From NCBI RefSeq assembly GCF_004795835.1, contig NZ_CP039249.1:4219957-4283956 (forward strand): 64,000 nt of DNA, written 5' to 3'. Below the pieces are notes generated by a model that saw only the letters and a list, made by a program, of their open reading frames with translations, ran no database searches and was not told where the DNA came from. Origin of the DNA: Sphingomonas sp. PAMC26645. Its GTDB lineage: Bacteria; Pseudomonadota; Alphaproteobacteria; Sphingomonadales; Sphingomonadaceae. Position numbers and translations under genes: made by a program. Below are positions 8,441 to 32,922 of this stretch, piece after piece. How positions within the stretch are numbered: position 1 is the first letter of the stretch; every line of letters starts with the position of its first letter.

Positions 8441-11400
8441 ATGGTTTCCAGAATCACGACTCTGTCGGCTCACGTCCGCGCCAGCGTTTGGGCGCAAGAG
8501 ACATCGCGTTTAACAACAGCGGCACGATCGGTTTCTACCGTTTCCAGTCCGACTACACGGCAACGGCGCACCCTCATCGCCGGATCGAGTAGCATCGCCG
8601 CTCTTATCCTCTCGCTATACGCAGCACCGTCTTTCGCACAGGCCGCCCCAGCGCAAACCACCGACACCGTCGCCGCCCCAGAGCCGCTCGCCGAGACGCC
8701 CAAGCCCGCCGAACCCGAGGCCGTCAGAACCGCCGACATCATCGTCACCGGCTCCCGGATCCAGTCGAGCGGCTTTACCGCCCCGACGCCGACCACGGTC
8801 ATCAGCGAAGCCGATATCCAGAACAACGCGCAGCCCAACGTCTTCACGACGATCGCGCAGCTGCCGTCGTTGCAGGGGTCGAGCGGTTCGACGACCAACA
8901 CCTTCAGCACGTCGAGCGGCCAGCAGGGCCTGAGCTCGTTCTCGCTCCGGGGCCTGGGCACTATCCGTACGCTCACCCTGGTCGACGGCCAGCGCGTTGT
9001 CGGTGCCTATTATACGGGCGTCACCGACGTCAGCCTGCTCCCGCAACTGCTGATCAAGCGAGTCGACATCGTCAACGGCGGCGCGTCCGCATCCTATGGA
9101 TCCGACGCGGTCGGCGGCGTCGTCAACTTCATCACGGACACCCATTTCCAGGGCTTCAAAGGCAACATCCAGGGCGGCATCACGAACTACGGCGACAACG
9201 GCCAGGGGCTTATCCAGCTTGCCGCGGGACGGAGCTACCTGAACGATCGACTCCACCTCGTCGTCAGCGGCGAATATGCCAAGGAAGCAGGCGTTGGCCC
9301 TGGCGATTTCGGCACCGACCTCGCCGGTGGTCGCGACTGGTTCACGCAGACGACGATGATCAACCGCAACGTAGTCGACGACGGATCGCCGCAATACGTC
9401 CTGCGCGATTTCGCCCAGCCGTATAACTTTACGAAATACGGCCTCATTACCGCCGGTCCGCTGCAGGGCACCGCGTTCGACCAGAGCGGCCGCCCCTTCC
9501 AGTTCCAATATGGCTCGAACGGCGTGCCCGCACGCGACAATTCCGGCGCGGTCCGAGGCTGCCTGCCCGGCTTCTGCGTCGGCGGCGACCTGTCGGGGAA
9601 CATCGATACCGGCCGCACCTTGCAGTCGGCGATCCAGCGCATCGATAGCTATGGGCGGATCGGCTATGACTTCGCGACCGACAACGAAGTCTATGTCAGC
9701 GTCAATGTCGGCCAGGTGAAGACCCATAACCAGCCGACCAACGGGGCCAACCGACCCGGCCTGAGGCTCCAGTGCGCGAACCCGTTCGTCCCGGCGTCGA
9801 TCCAGGCGGCATGTGCGACCGCGGGGATCACGGACTTCCAGTTCGGCGCCAGCGTCGCGATCCTGCCGAACACCATCGTCCATACCGATCGCCGCCAATA
9901 CCGTGTCGTCGGCGGCCTGAAGGGCAAGTTCGAACTCGGTGGGTCGCCCTGGACCTATGACGCCTATTACGAGCGCGGCATTACCGACACCGCGATCGAC
10001 GTCGACGACATCGTCCTCACGCCGCATTTCAACCAGGCGATCCAGGCGATCACGCTCAACGGCGCGATCGTCTGCGCCAATCCGGTCGCACGCGCCAATG
10101 GCTGTATCCCGCTCAATATCATCGGCGGCGCGGCACCATCCGAGTCGGCGCGCCGGTATGTCCAGCCAGAGAACGGCCCGATCCAGCGCCTCCACTTGAC
10201 GCAGGACGTTGCGAGCCTCGCCTTCTCCGGCACGCCCGTCGAGCTCTGGGCAGGTCCCCTGTCGGTCGCGTTCGGCGGCGAATATCGCAAGGAATTCTAC
10301 AAGGTCCGCGCCGATGCGTACGGCGCCGGCGTTTCCGCGCTCAGTCCCTATACCAGCGAATACCCCGCCGACCCGACCCTGCTAACCGCGGGCAACAACT
10401 GGTATGCCGGCAACTACAAGAACGGCACCGGCGCCTATGACGTCAAGGAAGCGTTCCTCGAGCTCGACGTCCCACTCTTCAAGTCGGACATGATGGGCAG
10501 GGCCAATATCAACGGCGCGGCCCGCATCACCGACTACAGCACGTCGGGCCGAGTCTGGACGTGGAAGATCGGCGGGACATGGGACACGCCGCTCAACGGC
10601 CTGCGCCTGCGCGGCGTCACCTCGCGCGACGTTCGCGCACCCAATCTGTCCGAGCTGTTCGCCGCACCGGTGACGACCACGCTGCCCAACTTCCTCGACC
10701 CCGCGCGCAACGTCAACGTCGTGGCCATCCAGAACGCGATCGGCAACCCGGCGCTCACGCCCGAGATCGCGCGCAACACCGAAGTCGGCGCGGTCTATGC
10801 CAATCCGTCCTGGCTGCCGGGGTTCAGCGCCTCGGTCGATTACTACAACATCAAGGTCACCGACGTGATCTCCAGCCTTGGCGCGGCCCAGATCGTCGAC
10901 CTGTGCTTCCGCAACATCCTGCCCGAAACGTGCAGCGCGTATAATCTCAACAACACCGCCGGGCCCAATTTCATCAACACGCAGGCGTTCAACCTCGCGT
11001 CGATCAAGACCGACGGCTTCGATATCGAGGCAAGCTATCGGTGGCGGCGCCCGCTCGGTGTGGACGGGACGTTCACGCTCCGTGGCCTGGCGACCCACAT
11101 CCGGAAGTTCGTCACCGATACCGGCCTGCCGGGGACGATTCCGACCGACGGCGCCGGCGTCAACCTCGGCGCCACCCCGCGCTGGAAGCTGCTCGCGGTA
11201 CAGGCGTTCAGCAACGATCGCTTCAGCCTGACGGTGCAGGAACGCTGGTTCAGCGACGGCAATTACGGCAACCAGTACGTCGTCTGCGCGCCCGGAACAT
11301 GCCCCAAATCGACCACCACCGCGCCGACGATCGACCGCAACTTCATGCCCGGCGCCTTCTATCTCGACGTCGGTGGAACGTATAATATCACCAAACAGGT

Positions 11401-11527
11401 GTCCGGGTATTTCAAGGTCGACAACGTCTTCGATCACGACCCGGCCGCCTCGCCGCAGAGCGCCAACCCGGCGCTGTACGACATCGTCGGGCGCATCTAC
11501 CGTGTCGGCGTCCGCTTCTCGTTCTGA
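8441..11527 (+). CDS. TonB-dependent outer-membrane receptor for pentose-containing oligosaccharides (predicted)
   Basis: 1028 residues. An AGGA ribosome-binding site 5 nt before ATG 8441 supports a long, basic N-terminal region before the hydrophobic signal segment (about residues 45-66, ending AAPSFAQA). The plug domain follows (IIVTGSRIQ, then ISEADIQNN, SLRGLGT, VNGGASASYGSDAVGGVVNF), then a beta-barrel ending in the typical terminal YRVGVRFSF. Such receptors import oligosaccharides with TonB-ExbBD energy. Substrate is inferred from the LacI operator and the adjacent GH51, GH43 and esterase-like genes. The hydrolase gene follows after 31 nt, so both are probably cotranscribed. Confidence 0.92.
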   Translation: MVSRITTLSAHVRASVWAQETSRLTTAARSVSTVSSPTTRQRRTLIAGSSSIAALILSLYAAPSFAQAAPAQTTDTVAAPEPLAETPKPAEPEAVRTADIIVTGSRIQSSGFTAPTPTTVISEADIQNNAQPNVFTTIAQLPSLQGSSGSTTNTFSTSSGQQGLSSFSLRGLGTIRTLTLVDGQRVVGAYYTGVTDVSLLPQLLIKRVDIVNGGASASYGSDAVGGVVNFITDTHFQGFKGNIQGGITNYGDNGQGLIQLAAGRSYLNDRLHLVVSGEYAKEAGVGPGDFGTDLAGGRDWFTQTTMINRNVVDDGSPQYVLRDFAQPYNFTKYGLITAGPLQGTAFDQSGRPFQFQYGSNGVPARDNSGAVRGCLPGFCVGGDLSGNIDTGRTLQSAIQRIDSYGRIGYDFATDNEVYVSVNVGQVKTHNQPTNGANRPGLRLQCANPFVPASIQAACATAGITDFQFGASVAILPNTIVHTDRRQYRVVGGLKGKFELGGSPWTYDAYYERGITDTAIDVDDIVLTPHFNQAIQAITLNGAIVCANPVARANGCIPLNIIGGAAPSESARRYVQPENGPIQRLHLTQDVASLAFSGTPVELWAGPLSVAFGGEYRKEFYKVRADAYGAGVSALSPYTSEYPADPTLLTAGNNWYAGNYKNGTGAYDVKEAFLELDVPLFKSDMMGRANINGAARITDYSTSGRVWTWKIGGTWDTPLNGLRLRGVTSRDVRAPNLSELFAAPVTTTLPNFLDPARNVNVVAIQNAIGNPALTPEIARNTEVGAVYANPSWLPGFSASVDYYNIKVTDVISSLGAAQIVDLCFRNILPETCSAYNLNNTAGPNFINTQAFNLASIKTDGFDIEASYRWRRPLGVDGTFTLRGLATHIRKFVTDTGLPGTIPTDGAGVNLGATPRWKLLAVQAFSNDRFSLTVQERWFSDGNYGNQYVVCAPGTCPKSTTTAPTIDRNFMPGAFYLDVGGTYNITKQVSGYFKVDNVFDHDPAASPQSANPALYDIVGRIYRVGVRFSF

Positions 11528-11558
11528 CGCCCCACCTCTACCAATACGGAGATCCAGC

Positions 11559-12488
11559 ATGCGCGCTCTCGCCCTTCTGATTGCCGGGATGATGCTGAGT
11601 TCCTCCGCGATCGCGCAGACCGCCGGGGCCGCGGCGGCGCAACCGACGCCACTGGAACGCGGGTCGGGCACGTACCCCGCGATCTTCGAGGAACGACCGG
11701 ACCTGCCCGACCATGTCGTCTACCGCCCGGCGGATTTTGGTGCGCTGGGTCGGGCCAAGCTCGGGATCTACGTCTTCGGCAATGGCGGCTGCAGCGCGGA
11801 CGGTACGAGTTCGCGCAACCACCTGCTGGAGATCGCCTCGCACGGCTATCTCGTCATCGCCTCGGGCACGATCCCCAAGCCGAAGTCCGACGCCGCGACC
11901 AAACCCGACCCGACCCCCGCCCCCGGCACGAAGCTGACCTCGGCAACGTCGACACGCGCACTGACCGACGCGATCGACTGGGCGCAGCGGGAGAATGCCC
12001 GCGCCGGCAGTCCGTTCAAGGGCAGGATCGCCACCACCGAGATCGCGGCGTCCGGCTGGAGTTGCGGCGGCTTGCAGGCATTATCGGCGGCGCAGGACCC
12101 GCGCGTGACGACCGCGGTGATCATGAACAGCGGCTTCTTTCCCGAGGGCGCGAACCCGATCGGCGGCGTCGTGTCCGACAAGGCGTTGCTGAAGACGCTG
12201 CACGGCTCGATCCTCTATGTCCTCGGCGGCCCGACCGACATCGCGGTCGCGAACGGCACCGACGATTTCCAGCGGATCGACCATATCCCCGCGGCGCTGG
12301 TCAACATACCGGTGGGTCATGGCGGCACCTACATGCAGCCGCATGGCGGTATCGCGGCGGAAGTCGTGACCGCGTGGCTGGACTGGCGTTTGAAGAACGA
12401 CCGAACCGCCGCCGCGCGCTTCGTCGGCAAGGATTGCGGCTTCTGCCAGGACACGCGGCTCACGATCGAGCGCAAACACTTCGACTAG
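11559..12488 (+). CDS. Exported alpha/beta hydrolase (esterase-like) of the pentosan locus
   Basis: 309 residues with a clear signal peptide (MRALALLIAGMMLSSSAIAQ). The alpha/beta-hydrolase triad can be read: Ser168 in GWSCG (a GxSxG elbow), Asp227 (GGPTDIA) and His254 (VGHGGTY). The C-terminus has a CGFC motif, perhaps a disulfide. The distance to the receptor stop (31 nt) and an ACGGAG ribosome-binding site support co-expression. By context it may remove acetyl or feruloyl groups from arabinoxylan fragments; a cutinase/dienelactone-hydrolase-like activity on another ester is equally possible. Confidence 0.8.
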   Translation: MRALALLIAGMMLSSSAIAQTAGAAAAQPTPLERGSGTYPAIFEERPDLPDHVVYRPADFGALGRAKLGIYVFGNGGCSADGTSSRNHLLEIASHGYLVIASGTIPKPKSDAATKPDPTPAPGTKLTSATSTRALTDAIDWAQRENARAGSPFKGRIATTEIAASGWSCGGLQALSAAQDPRVTTAVIMNSGFFPEGANPIGGVVSDKALLKTLHGSILYVLGGPTDIAVANGTDDFQRIDHIPAALVNIPVGHGGTYMQPHGGIAAEVVTAWLDWRLKNDRTAAARFVGKDCGFCQDTRLTIERKHFD

Positions 12489-29335: not shown

Positions 29336-29438
29336 CACCCCGGCGAAGGCCGGGGCCCAATTGGAAAAGTCACAGTAACGGCGTGCAATGCCCGCCAAGC
29401 GTCGTCCCCCAATTGGGCCCCGGCCTTCGCCGGGGTGG
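29336..29438. repeat. Paired palindromic repeat, family B copy 2 (REPIN-like, inverted orientation)
   Basis: Units at about 29336-29364 and 29408-29438. Its interior matches copies 1, 3 and 4 only after reverse complementing (GCCGTTACTGTGACTTTTCC), showing that the element occurs in both orientations. Confidence 0.85.
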
Positions 29439-29494: not shown

Positions 29495-29521
29495 TCGTTA
29501 TGTAGCTCGACTATATAACGA
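29495..29521. promoter_or_regulatory. ModE box (molybdate-responsive operator)
   Basis: 27 nt: arms TCGTTATGTAG and CTATATAACGA around a CTCGA centre, an 11-bp inverted repeat with one mismatch pair. It closely resembles the E. coli modABC operator (CGTTAT...ATAACG half-sites). It ends 13 nt before the ATG of the TonB receptor, and modE itself is the next gene. Binding of molybdate-loaded ModE here would block transcription. Confidence 0.88.
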
Positions 29522-29534
29522 AGGGGCGACGACA

Positions 29535-31985
29535 ATGCGGGGACATGATTTCACGCGGCTGAGTGCCGTGCTGCTGGCTACAACTTGCCTACCGATGATG
29601 GCAGCCGCGCAGGCCAGCGCCGCCAATCCGGAACAGACACGCACCGAGGGCACCACAGCCCAACCGAGCGACGACCCCGACACCTCGATGGAGGTGATCG
29701 TCACTGCTCGCCGTCGCGCCGAGAACGCCCAGAAGATCCCCGGCTCGCTGTCCGTTGTCGGTGGCGCGCTACTCGACCGCTCCTACAGCGTGAACACGCA
29801 GCAGCTGGCGCAGCTCGTCCCCGCGTTGAACTACAGCTCGGCCAATCCCCGCAACACCGCGTTCACGATCCGCGGGCTCGGCAGCAGCGTCGTCGCGGTC
29901 AGTCAGGCCAATGACGGGCTCGAACCCGGCGTCGGCTATTATGTCGACCAGGTCTATCACGCCCGCCCCGCCACCGCCGCGTTCGACTTCAGCGACATCG
30001 AGCAGGTCGAAGTTCTACGCGGTCCACAGGGGACGCTGTTCGGCAAGAACTCGACCGCTGGCGCGATCAACATCACGACGCGAGCACCGACCTTCACCAC
30101 CGAAGGCGAGGCGGAGATCAGCTATGCGAGCTACAACTTTCTCCAAGTGAAGGGCGCCGTCTCGGGCCCGATCATCGGCGACACGCTCGCCGGCCGCGTG
30201 TCGGTGGTCAGCACGCGCCGCGACGGCGTGATCGACAACGTCGTCACCGGCCGCGACCAGAACACCATCGGCAACCAGGCGATCCGCGGCCAATTGCTGT
30301 TCCGCCCCTCGGCGGTGTTCCAGGTGAAGGTCAGCGCCGACTTCACCAACTTTCAGAGCAACTGCTGCACGCAGGTCTATTACAACGTCGCCACTCGCCC
30401 CGGCAGTGGCACCGACGGCCGGTTGTTCCGCACCGCCACGCGCCAGTTCGGCGGCCCGACCGGCCTCGCCGCGCAGTTCAACTACGCACCACCGAGCACA
30501 AATCCGTACGACCGCAAGACCGACATCGACGCCGCGCTCGGCGTCGATACCAACGAAGGCGGCGTCGGCGTGATCGCGGATTGGAACCTTGGGGCCGCGA
30601 CGCTCACTTCGGTCAGCGCGTGGCGCTTCTGGAACTGGGATGCCGACAACGATCGCGACTATACCGGGATCCCGATCCAGACCGAACAGCACATCCCCTC
30701 GCGCCAGGACCAGTATAGCCAGGAACTGCGCCTCGCCTCGAACGGCGACCACAAACTGAGCTACGTCGGCGGGCTGTATTTCTTCCGCCAGCGCGTCATC
30801 GGCCGCCCGATTTCGATCTACGGCCCCGCCGCCGCACGCTATCTGATCGGCACGTCGACGGGCACGGGCGCCGCCGCAACCGCCGTCCCCAGCAACCTGC
30901 TCGATGGCTACGGCACCGACGGCCGCACCGATTTCCACTCGGACAGCTATGCCGCGTTCGGCGAAGTGAACTGGAAGCCGATCGACCGCCTGACGCTGAC
31001 CGGCGGGCTTCGGTATACCTATGAGGAAAAGGAGGGGACGTACGACACCTTCACCTTCGGCGGCTTGCAGACGACGAACGCGGCGCTCAATGCGGCCAAG
31101 CTGTCGATCCTGCGCGGCCAGAACTACGCCGCCAGCGACAAGGACGGTGCGCTGACGGGGCGCGGCAACATCGCGTACCAGGCGACCGATAACGTCCTCG
31201 CCTACGCCAGCTACGCGCGCGGCGAAAAATCGGGCGGTATCAACATGTCTGGCCTTCCGCTCAATGACCAGAACCAGCCCGCGATCGGCACCGCCGTGGT
31301 GCGCCCCGAGAAGAACACCGCGTACGAGATTGGCCTGAAGACGCAGCTGTTCGACAATCGCCTGATCTTCAACGTCGACGGCTATTATACGCGCGTCACC
31401 GATTTCCAGTCGAACGTCACCGACACCCGCGCCGCCGCTGCGCTCCGCACGTACCTCGCCAACATCCCGAAAGTGACGGTGCGCGGGTTCGAGGCGGACG
31501 CGACCGCGCTCGTCACCCGCAACCTGTCGCTGCGCGGCAGCGTCGCCTATGCGGACGGCAAGTTCAATTCCTACCCGGCCGCCCCCTGCCCGATCGAACG
31601 GATCTTCAACACTGCCGCCTTCTGCGATCTCAGCGGCCAGCGCCTATCGAGCCTGCCGCGATGGTCGTACACGCTCGGCGCGGACTACAACCAGCCGATC
31701 GCCGACATCGGCAGCGGCTTCGTCCATGTCGATTCGAACACGCGCACGCGGCAGTTCGGCGATCCCTCGGGTTCGGCGTTCACGGTCATCCAGGGCTACA
31801 CGATCGTCAACGGCAGCATCGGCTTCCGCTCGAAGCAGGGCTGGGAACTCGCCGTGTTCTCACGCAACCTGCTGAACAAGGACTATATCCAGAACGTGAC
31901 GATCCAGGCGGGCAATTCCGGCCTGATCCTGGCCACGCCGAGCGACCCGCGCACGATCGGACTTACCTTCCGCATCCGCCAGTGA
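29535..31985 (+). CDS. TonB-dependent receptor, predicted molybdate/tungstate (oxyanion) importer
   Basis: 816 residues: signal peptide (LSAVLLATTCLPMMAAAQA), TonB-box-like MEVIVTARRR around residue 52, plug domain (QKIPGSLSVV, FTIRGLGSS, VEVLRGPQGTLFGKNSTAGAINI) and a 22-strand-type barrel ending RTIGLTFRIRQ. The start ATG 29535 follows AAGGGG. What it imports is inferred from regulation: a near-perfect ModE box overlaps the promoter region and modE follows after 13 nt. No modABC genes are in the window. Alternative: a receptor for a molybdenum-chelating siderophore, or one controlled by Mo for another reason. Confidence 0.88.
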   Translation: MRGHDFTRLSAVLLATTCLPMMAAAQASAANPEQTRTEGTTAQPSDDPDTSMEVIVTARRRAENAQKIPGSLSVVGGALLDRSYSVNTQQLAQLVPALNYSSANPRNTAFTIRGLGSSVVAVSQANDGLEPGVGYYVDQVYHARPATAAFDFSDIEQVEVLRGPQGTLFGKNSTAGAINITTRAPTFTTEGEAEISYASYNFLQVKGAVSGPIIGDTLAGRVSVVSTRRDGVIDNVVTGRDQNTIGNQAIRGQLLFRPSAVFQVKVSADFTNFQSNCCTQVYYNVATRPGSGTDGRLFRTATRQFGGPTGLAAQFNYAPPSTNPYDRKTDIDAALGVDTNEGGVGVIADWNLGAATLTSVSAWRFWNWDADNDRDYTGIPIQTEQHIPSRQDQYSQELRLASNGDHKLSYVGGLYFFRQRVIGRPISIYGPAAARYLIGTSTGTGAAATAVPSNLLDGYGTDGRTDFHSDSYAAFGEVNWKPIDRLTLTGGLRYTYEEKEGTYDTFTFGGLQTTNAALNAAKLSILRGQNYAASDKDGALTGRGNIAYQATDNVLAYASYARGEKSGGINMSGLPLNDQNQPAIGTAVVRPEKNTAYEIGLKTQLFDNRLIFNVDGYYTRVTDFQSNVTDTRAAAALRTYLANIPKVTVRGFEADATALVTRNLSLRGSVAYADGKFNSYPAAPCPIERIFNTAAFCDLSGQRLSSLPRWSYTLGADYNQPIADIGSGFVHVDSNTRTRQFGDPSGSAFTVIQGYTIVNGSIGFRSKQGWELAVFSRNLLNKDYIQNVTIQAGNSGLILATPSDPRTIGLTFRIRQ

Positions 31986-31998
31986 GTATGGGGGTGGG

Positions 31999-32796
31999 AT
32001 GCCCGACCCCGCCCTCCACGCCACGATCCTGCTCGCCAAGGACCAGACAGGCCGCGTCGGCGCCGACCGGATCGCGCTGCTCCGCGCGATCCGCGACGGC
32101 GGCTCGATCACCAGCGCGGCCAAGGTCGTGGGGCTGAGCTACAAGGCGGCATGGGACGCGGTGCAGGTGATGAACAATCTGTTCGACCGGCCGCTCGTGC
32201 TCCCCGCGGCGGGCGGCAAGGACGGCGGCGCGAGCCCAATCACCGAGGCGGGCGTGGCGGTGCTCGACGGTTATGCGGTCGCCGAGGCCGAGCTCGCCAG
32301 CGCGATGGCGCGGATCGAGGCTAGCGTGTCGAACGGGCTGTCGCTGAAGCCTTTGCTATGGGGAATCGGAATGAAGACGAGCGCGCGCAACGTGTTGCGC
32401 GGCACCGTGTCGCGCGTGACCCCAGGGACGATCGATGCCGAGGTTACGCTGGCGGTGGCGGATGGCGTCGAGATCGTCGCGACGATCACGCGCGGCAGCG
32501 CCGAGGATCTGGGACTGGTACCGGGCGCGACAGCGTTGGCGCTCATCAAGTCGAGCTTCGTGATCCTCGCGCGTGGTGACGAGAGCTTGCGGACGTCGGC
32601 CCGCAACACGCTGGCGGGGACGGTGATCGCCCGCGAGGACGGCGCGATCTCCAGCGAAGTGACGCTGGAACTGACGCTCGGCAAGACGCTGACCGCGACG
32701 TTGACCAAGGAGAGCGCGGAGGCGCTCGACCTGCAGATCGGCACGCGCGCGCTGGCGTTGATCAAGGCCAGCCATGTGATCCTGGCGGTCGAGTAA
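31999..32796 (+). CDS. modE: Molybdate-responsive transcriptional regulator ModE
   Basis: 265 residues, full-length ModE architecture: N-terminal winged helix (HTH about 35-55, GSITSAAKVVGLSYKAAWDAV) and two tandem Mop domains, each with the molybdate-binding SARN motif (128-131 and 200-203). Molybdate-bound dimers repress uptake genes. It is 13 nt after the TonB receptor and probably transcribed from the same ModE-boxed promoter, which implies negative autoregulation. A GGGGGTGGG ribosome-binding stretch precedes the ATG. Confidence 0.95.
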   Translation: MPDPALHATILLAKDQTGRVGADRIALLRAIRDGGSITSAAKVVGLSYKAAWDAVQVMNNLFDRPLVLPAAGGKDGGASPITEAGVAVLDGYAVAEAELASAMARIEASVSNGLSLKPLLWGIGMKTSARNVLRGTVSRVTPGTIDAEVTLAVADGVEIVATITRGSAEDLGLVPGATALALIKSSFVILARGDESLRTSARNTLAGTVIAREDGAISSEVTLELTLGKTLTATLTKESAEALDLQIGTRALALIKASHVILAVE

Positions 32797-32820: not shown

Positions 32821-32922
32821 CCCCGGCGGAGGCCGAAGCCCAATTGGGGAACGTTGATAGCGGAGTTCGGCCTTCCGTTACCGCGACCTCTCCAGTTGGA
32901 CCCCGGCCCCCGCCGGGGGGTG
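32821..32922. repeat. Paired palindromic repeat, family B copy 3 (REPIN-like)
   Basis: Units at about 32821-32849 and 32892-32922. The interior (ACGTTGATAGC ... CCGTTACCGCGACCTCTCC) aligns with copy 4 (ACGTTGCTAAC ... TCGTTACTGCGACCTTTCC). It follows modE. Confidence 0.85.

Follow-up and report, generated by a model that had tools for sequence, protein, structure and literature searches.

A candidate molybdenum-uptake unit of a TonB-dependent receptor and ModE in Sphingomonas and its relatives

Described systems and the Sphingomonas locus

Several routes have been described by which molybdate, an oxyanion of molybdenum (Mo), crosses the bacterial outer membrane. For Salmonella, entry by porin diffusion is the view stated in the accessible part of the source (PMC8264917), and for Pseudomonas aeruginosa the accessible account is of molybdate acquisition by a type VI secretion system (T6SS)-ModA-IcmP route with a secreted ModA (PMC8602904). 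Here, we describe a two-gene unit of Sphingomonas sp. PAMC26645 in which a TonB-dependent outer-membrane receptor (TBDR) gene is preceded by a palindrome of the kind bound by the molybdate-responsive regulator ModE and followed by modE itself. The unit lies in a window of 64,000 nt, the last 64 kb of the single 4.28-Mb contig of this genome (NZ_CP039249.1, positions 4,219,957 to 4,283,956), whose close kin are Sphingomonas, including S. faeni MA-olki. It is probable, judging from the comparisons below, that the unit is a Mo-starvation uptake operon, repressed by Mo, through which molybdate or a chelate of Mo is imported with energy from TonB.

The reference point for the regulator is the ModE box of Escherichia coli, for which the accessible text gives the consensus ATCGNTATATA-N6-TATATANCGAT (PMC545781). 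The Sphingomonas locus resembles the E. coli ModE/modABC system in a regulator with a probable helix-turn-helix (HTH) and two Mop domains, in the consensus half-sites and in a modA gene that is also boxed; it differs in that its spacer is of 7 nt (N7) rather than N6 and its nearest target is an outer-membrane receptor. A single-domain ModE of Desulfovibrio, with a DNA-binding domain and no molybdate domains, is like the short ModE of the relatives considered below; the site given for it in the same partial source is a CGGTCACG-N14-CGTGACCG repeat, whereas the sphingomonad site stays near the E. coli box (PMC545781).

For the receptor, the likeness is to TBDRs that serve a scarce metal, namely that of the Caulobacter Zur regulon, placed under the sensor of its metal (PMC4176598, in its accessible part), the meningococcal zinc receptor (PMC2895646, likewise) and the copper receptor OprC, which is among the structure matches of our receptor model. 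Unlike these, the present receptor is paired with a sensor for an oxyanion, in two alternative forms with matched operators. In Azotobacter chroococcum, a TonB receptor gene, Achr_39300, has been annotated beside modG, modE/G and modABC genes, much as here, and such a receptor has been proposed; it is a single annotation from another class, likened by description only, and the accessible text mentions no operator (PMC4465626). The P. aeruginosa route is similarly a dedicated outer-membrane path for molybdate, but it is described there with secreted ModA and the outer-membrane protein IcmP and not with a ModE-controlled TBDR (PMC8602904, in the part available). No description of a ModE-controlled TBDR was found in the open-access literature searched, subscription journals being mostly uncovered. 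Metal-linked TBDRs are a kind already known; what would be new is the metal, together with a regulon that extends across many species of the order.

Palindrome, regulator and receptor in the window

Gene order, domains and box can be read directly from the sequence (Table 1). The earlier note had described a 27-nt near-perfect palindrome just before the receptor and a full-length ModE with both SARN motifs just after it, and both descriptions hold. The palindrome (29495-29521) reads TCGTTATGTAG-CTCGA-CTATATAACGA, its 11-nt arms being unlike at one position, and 13 nt separate it from the receptor ATG (29535); another 13 nt separate the receptor stop (31985) from the ATG of modE (31999), whose 265-aa product carries a probable HTH and two Mop domains. 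The half-sites are of the form CGNTATATA / TATATANCG of the E. coli consensus, with N7 in place of N6, and they differ from CGTTATATA / TATATAACG at 1 of 18 positions.

Scanning the window with spacers of 4-8 nt gave a single site that departs from the half-sites at 1 of their 18 positions; the runner-up departs at 5. In 30 dinucleotide-shuffled windows, scanned with spacers of 4-9, the best site had 5 mismatches (16 windows) or 6 (14 windows). A lone half-site with at most 2 mismatches is ordinary (5 matches in the window, 4.51 expected); the whole palindrome, unlike the lone half-site, is unusual against chance, and the exact box pattern occurs at one place in the 4.28-Mb genome.

Table 1. 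Features of the TBDR-modE unit; positions are those of the 64,000-nt window.
Feature	Position	Strand	Basis or detail
ModE-type operator, 27-nt near-perfect palindrome, predicted	29495..29521	+	half-sites CGTTATGTA / TATATAACG, spacer 7 nt (N7)
TBDR, 816 aa, putative importer of Mo/tungsten or a Mo chelate	29535..31985	+	Pfam, AlphaFold2 model, Mo-gene neighbourhoods of relatives
Plug domain, residues 65-177	29727..30065	+	PF07715, 68.5 bits (cut-off 23.9)
Beta-barrel domain, residues 298-779	30426..31871	+	PF00593, 145.9 bits (cut-off 27)
modE, full-length molybdate-responsive regulator, 265 aa	31999..32796	+	probable HTH, two Mop domains, two SARN motifs
ModE DNA-binding (winged HTH) domain, residues 19-109	32053..32325	+	TIGR00637, 87.2 bits, below cut-off 98.5
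First Mop/TOBE domain, residues 127-190 (SARN motif)	32377..32568	+	PF03459, higher-scoring of 2 stretches
Second Mop/TOBE domain, residues 197-264 (SARN motif)	32587..32790	+	TIGR00638, 142.2 bits (cut-off 55), higher-scoring of 2 stretches

The putative DNA-binding domain of the regulator aligns with positions 1-91 of the 100 of TIGR00637 (E 5.8e-25; 87.2 bits against a cut-off of 98.5), and two C-terminal Mop domains with SARN motifs are present (TIGR00638). On PRK10676, the model for the E. coli-type equivalog, it scores 143.8 bits, far under the cut-off of 369; as judged by these profiles, it is a ModE-type regulator and not the E. coli-type equivalog, a further difference from the E. coli system.

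In the receptor, both the plug (PF07715) and the barrel (PF00593) that define a TonB-dependent receptor score above their cut-offs. On inspection by eye, the N-terminus resembles a signal peptide and the stretch MEVIVTAR (residues 51-58) a TonB box. The receptor was modelled with AlphaFold2 from a 44-row alignment, with fair confidence (mean pLDDT 76.8); the model has FyuA as its top PDB match (TM 0.85 by target length, 19% identity), and all 50 PDB matches listed are TBDRs. On the TonB-dependent siderophore receptor model TIGR01783, the receptor scores 112.7 bits, below the cut-off of 223.5.

Predicted operators and neighbours of the receptor relatives

Relatives were collected by scanning named genomes with a four-sequence receptor alignment, and the best 80 of 447 coding relatives (59-98% identity) were taken; 78 of them carry Sphingomonadales names in their titles, and the other two are titled 'uncultured bacterium' and 'Actinobacteria bacterium'. 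Conservation of the box, like that of the Mo-gene linkage, is a direct observation. A ModE-type palindrome stands 5' of 77 of the 80, 66 times in the N6 and 11 times in the N7 form; in L195 and L205 the N6 site overlaps the aligned gene start, and L187, which has no upstream sequence, is not counted among the sites. The N7 sites are those of the eleven loci with full-length ModE, nine having 1 or 2 mismatches and the two weak ones, L161 and L167, having 4 and 5. Sphingomonas sp. Leaf230 (L131) and Leaf208 (L128) are among the strains that carry the receptor-modE pair.

A matrix iterated on the 80 upstream regions is this same palindrome, with consensus CGCTATATA-N6-TATATAGCG, and scores the 66 N6 loci at 16 to 36 bits against a shuffle 99% quantile of 7.3 and maximum of 10.5, although the sites scored were also those on which the matrix behind this threshold had been trained. 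The fairer test is split-half training, which recovered 65 of the 66 N6 sites and, over 1.08 Mb, gave 7 matches at distances above 400 bp. Across 1.30 Mb of the relatives' loci, 26 extra matches exceed 16 bits. They comprise the sites of L195 and L205, eight matches at other places (L131, L136 twice, L171 twice, L172, L183 and L200), and 16 cases in which a second site lies at 22-23 bp from the first (L148, L150, L154, L155, L157, L159, L162, L166, L171, L173, L174, L176, L177, L182, L201 and L203). The spacing of this pairing, about two helical turns, suggests tandem ModE dimers.

The control receptors present a different picture. There are 89 TBDR-like open reading frames (ORFs) in the 80 loci, 80 of them the receptors themselves, and 8 of the 9 others, those of at least 500 aa, served as controls; a box of either type was found before none of these 8. 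In a second control set, another TBDR group (16 loci, from 61 genus genomes searched), neither a box nor a Mo gene was found in any of the 16. These counts bear on the idea that the palindrome is a chance one or a hitch-hiker, box and modE belonging together with the TBDR as a bystander. Three relatives without the TBDR do retain modE, as such an idea would have it; however, the 77 palindromes include 66 of N6 form that have no full-length modE adjacent, the box is in 0 of 24 control TBDRs, and no shuffled window yields an equally good palindrome, so that we regard a bystander receptor as very nearly negligible in probability.

One TBDR outside the clade does have a strong N6 box. It lies in L171 and, having been missed by the control-set profile, is not part of that set; more than one receptor may belong to the Mo regulon. 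In L171:11366-14028, its box (30 bits) lies between this 692-aa TBDR and a divergent, exported-looking 170-aa protein with no Pfam or NCBIfam match. In L136 and L200 (and L248), the clade TBDR shares its box with a divergently encoded protein of similar look and about 175 aa; a periplasmic partner is a possible role for it. In L183, a 30-bit N6 box away from the TBDR (11940-11963) precedes a minus-strand ORF (10439-11911) that looks by eye like an aldehyde dehydrogenase.

The box also sits where a repressor would act: it lies 13 nt before the ATG in the window, and its median distance to the first in-frame start is 35 nt (range 0-106) in 65 N6 loci, which fits repression. This position is pertinent to the proposal that the receptor imports an organic substrate for a Mo enzyme and that ModE matches its expression to the Mo supply by activation. 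ModE does activate some genes in E. coli, and sphingomonad TBDRs often carry organic substrates; a box so close before the start codon, and the linkage of the receptor to genes of Mo uptake and sensing, nevertheless make that proposal improbable.

Flanks of at most 8 kb, where several contigs are short and the absence of a Mo gene is not always informative, contain modE, short modE, mop or modABC in 54 of the 80 cases, including L185, where a short-modE fragment at the contig edge lies just before the receptor. If L155 and seven loci close in type to that of the window are set aside, 42 of the remaining 72 relatives have a Mo gene within 1.5 kb of the TBDR. The arrangements are various. Full modE may lie downstream, or short modE upstream, in many cases with a solitary mop before it; modABC may be divergent or lie downstream at about 5 kb; mop may be divergent; and short modE may be convergent downstream. 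On the TBDR tree these arrangements require 21 changes, the minimum possible being 6. The two short ModE proteins scanned score 64.8 and 50 bits on the ModE DNA-binding domain (cut-off 98.5), and the one solitary Mop scanned is above its cut-off. Where the receptor showed no Mo neighbour, a short modE was found in all 26 searchable genomes, counting that of L185, whose short modE is split with one piece beside the receptor; the genome of L206 was outside this search. Short modE is also present in the genomes of L142 and L151, and none was found in that of L172.

A further test comes from the gap between short modE and modA. The matrix trained on TBDR upstream regions only marks this gap above 12 bits in 15 of 19 loci and above 16 bits in 10 of them, every match lying between short modE and modA; the 19 are loci with short modE and modA or modB beside it, L207 being left out as the same place as L033. 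For scale, the 64-kb window has 2 matches above 12 bits and the 20 loci L107-L126 have 1. The earlier suggestion of ModE-type control of the receptor is supported by the palindromes, by the Mo-gene flanks and by this motif, and so is the membership of the receptor in a Mo regulon. Short modE itself seems not to be under control of the box, since no box was found at the short-modE loci L220-L247 except L243, which also has modABC. An exact N6 core, too strict a search, gave 9 places in 8 of 298 family genomes, two of them adjoining short modE (one also modABC). The exact full box matched in 4 of 398 phylum genomes, own genome included; of the three other matches, two adjoin modE/modABC-type genes, and at L219 none of the reference genes was found beside it. 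In two genomes of other families, the box next to genes of the ModE/modABC type has the N6 spacing.

Spacing goes with regulator among the receptor relatives, N7 with full ModE and N6 otherwise. The N7 form is found in all 11 relatives with TBDR and full ModE, and also in the modA box of a genome of another genus (G110). On the receptor tree, the full-modE arrangement needs at least three changes on branches with good support, and a single gain with two losses could account for them; the N7 box accompanies this arrangement each time, and near relatives without full modE, such as L134, have N6. Two regulator forms would, we infer, read two spacings, and the pattern suggests that the regulator was exchanged together with a matched change of operator spacing. 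Full-length ModE per se does not appear to require N7, because a genome of another family of the phylum (G868) has an N6 box between full modE and modABC.

Within the genus, full-length ModE was found in 15 of 295 genomes searched, with the copy of G376 split over two contigs, and two further genomes match the C-terminal half of ModE only. In these two (L079 of G134 and L078 of G172), the proteins match only the C-terminal Mop pair, at about 44% identity, and that of L079 is near a modC-like gene. The TBDR adjoins modE in 12 of the 15 full-ModE genomes (62-98% TBDR identity outside the window), and all 12 have an N7 palindrome 5' of the TBDR with 1 to 5 mismatches. In the other three (L071, L073 and L074), the receptor is gone and modE is kept; scars of the last receptor codons persist beside modE, and in L073 the decayed left part of the box is apparently kept, as seen by eye. 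The 13-nt gap between receptor and modE, 12 nt in the three most divergent pairs (L075, L076 and L081), makes autoregulation of modE through the receptor promoter plausible; such shared-promoter autoregulation would not be general, because three relatives keep modE after losing the receptor.

modABC, the proposed uptake route and its alternatives

The observation that the window holds no modABC is confirmed, and the genome's own modABC lies at about 2.82 Mb of the same contig; a modB-type match was found in 25 of 25 genomes looked at, 24 of them above the cut-off. Boxes had been expected at modABC and at Mo-enzyme genes elsewhere in the genome, and the expectation is borne out in part. In the own genome, modA is preceded by a weaker N7 box (4 mismatches in 18), and such a box was found in 11 of 12 genomes, namely the own one and its 11 nearest full-ModE relatives. 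The genomes without the receptor (L112, L115 and L118) are among these relatives and keep it. In L120 (G357) the start of modA is missing and the box cannot be judged, the modA region of G376 was outside the comparison, and none was found in four genus genomes outside the 15 (L121-L124). In G110, a ModE 55% identical to that of the window is encoded near modABC, with an N7 box of 2 mismatches before modA. The N6 matrix does not detect the own modA box, which is N7 and weak. Boxes at Mo-enzyme genes are not established: a degenerate palindrome occurs at 29 places in the own genome, all unannotated, against 774 for the reversed control. Further strong boxes in this genome were rejected, the exact pattern having one place and the degenerate count falling below its control. 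The genome is probably able to use Mo, given six matches to the Mo-enzyme domain PF02738, and it has no short ModE match.

The route that we favour can be pictured as follows. When Mo is replete, molybdate-bound ModE would occupy the 27-nt palindrome and shut off the TBDR together with modE, which would be transcribed by read-through. As Mo becomes short, this block would be lifted and the receptor made. At the cell surface the receptor would capture molybdate or, with greater likelihood, a chelate of scarce Mo (or W, tungsten) and pass it to the periplasm; from there ModABC, whose genes lie apart from the unit behind a similar but weaker box, would move Mo to the cytoplasm. ModE binding, repression, the shared TBDR-modE transcript, the Mo ligand and transport are the steps that we infer here.

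Several points weigh against this route. No sigma-70-like promoter was found beside the box, and among NCBIfam models no substrate-specific TBDR model reaches its cut-off on the receptor. The receptor is dispensable, to judge from its loss in 3 of the 15 full-ModE genomes, and G376 has a short ModE in addition to its split full one. The own modA box is weak, none is present in L110, the exception among the 12, and none was found in L119 (G242); at 7 of the 9 exact N6-core places, no reference gene was found within about 1.5 kb. The relatives share kinship and are not independent observations, and their counts are not probabilities. Lastly, in both sequence and fold the receptor comes closest to structures that are for the most part iron-siderophore receptors, such as FyuA, Fiu and PiuA, so that its fold does not point to Mo.

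This kinship makes a chelate a better guess for the ligand than molybdate, and it also feeds an alternative in which the receptor belongs to the Mo regulon and carries a metallophore chiefly for iron, or for iron and Mo, with ModE tuning chelator uptake. The chelator would then bind Mo as well, as discussed for Azotobacter catechol siderophores; a Mo-azotochelin complex and siderophores made in response to Mo appear as entries in the reference lists of PMC9694258 and PMC10669500. With a ModE-type box in nearly all relatives examined, and with Mo genes as the neighbours sought and found (metallophore synthesis genes were not searched for), we hold such a metallophore role to be unlikely.

The substrate might instead be another oxyanion, above all tungstate, molybdate being merely the regulatory signal. 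ModE also responds to W, and the receptor sequence holds nothing that separates Mo from W. ModA, moreover, can bind W, according to the accessible part of PMC8264917. On the other side stand the own modA and modB, above Mo-specific cut-offs (modC is below its own), and the six PF02738 matches, tungsten enzymes not having been searched for; tungstate appears to us a slightly less probable, and again unlikely, substrate than an iron metallophore.

Some other elements deserve mention. A solitary mop (molbindin-like) gene of the own genome (G000:C1:2126747-2126950, L125) lies near a distant TBDR, which was rejected as a close paralogue of the receptor (23% identity over 218 residues). In the window, GC-rich inverted-repeat elements stand on both sides of the TBDR-modE unit (29338-29355, 29418-29433 and 32901-32918), and their 16-mer core has 6 copies. 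From 33.0 to 39.7 kb follow a MarR-family regulator and then ORFs for FUSC-type membrane, HlyD-like, outer-membrane efflux and major facilitator superfamily transporter proteins; the names are by eye except MarR, the cluster is probably one of efflux, and nothing seen ties it to Mo.

Overall, we lean towards the view that the Sphingomonadales possess a dedicated family of TonB-dependent Mo importers. ModE-type control of this family would have persisted through an exchange of the regulator itself, which is either full-length ModE or a short ModE that a solitary Mop often accompanies, and of the operator spacing (N6 or N7) along with it. As far as the literature searches show, such a family would, with like moderate confidence, be the first defined by its regulon for an oxyanion metal. 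The 80 named loci and the three natural receptor deletions offer material for comparison. If the reading is true, the ligand could be a shared Mo chelator. These bacteria would then probably import Mo actively through the outer membrane, not by passive pores alone, and energised outer-membrane uptake of Mo would extend to a large group of environmental bacteria.

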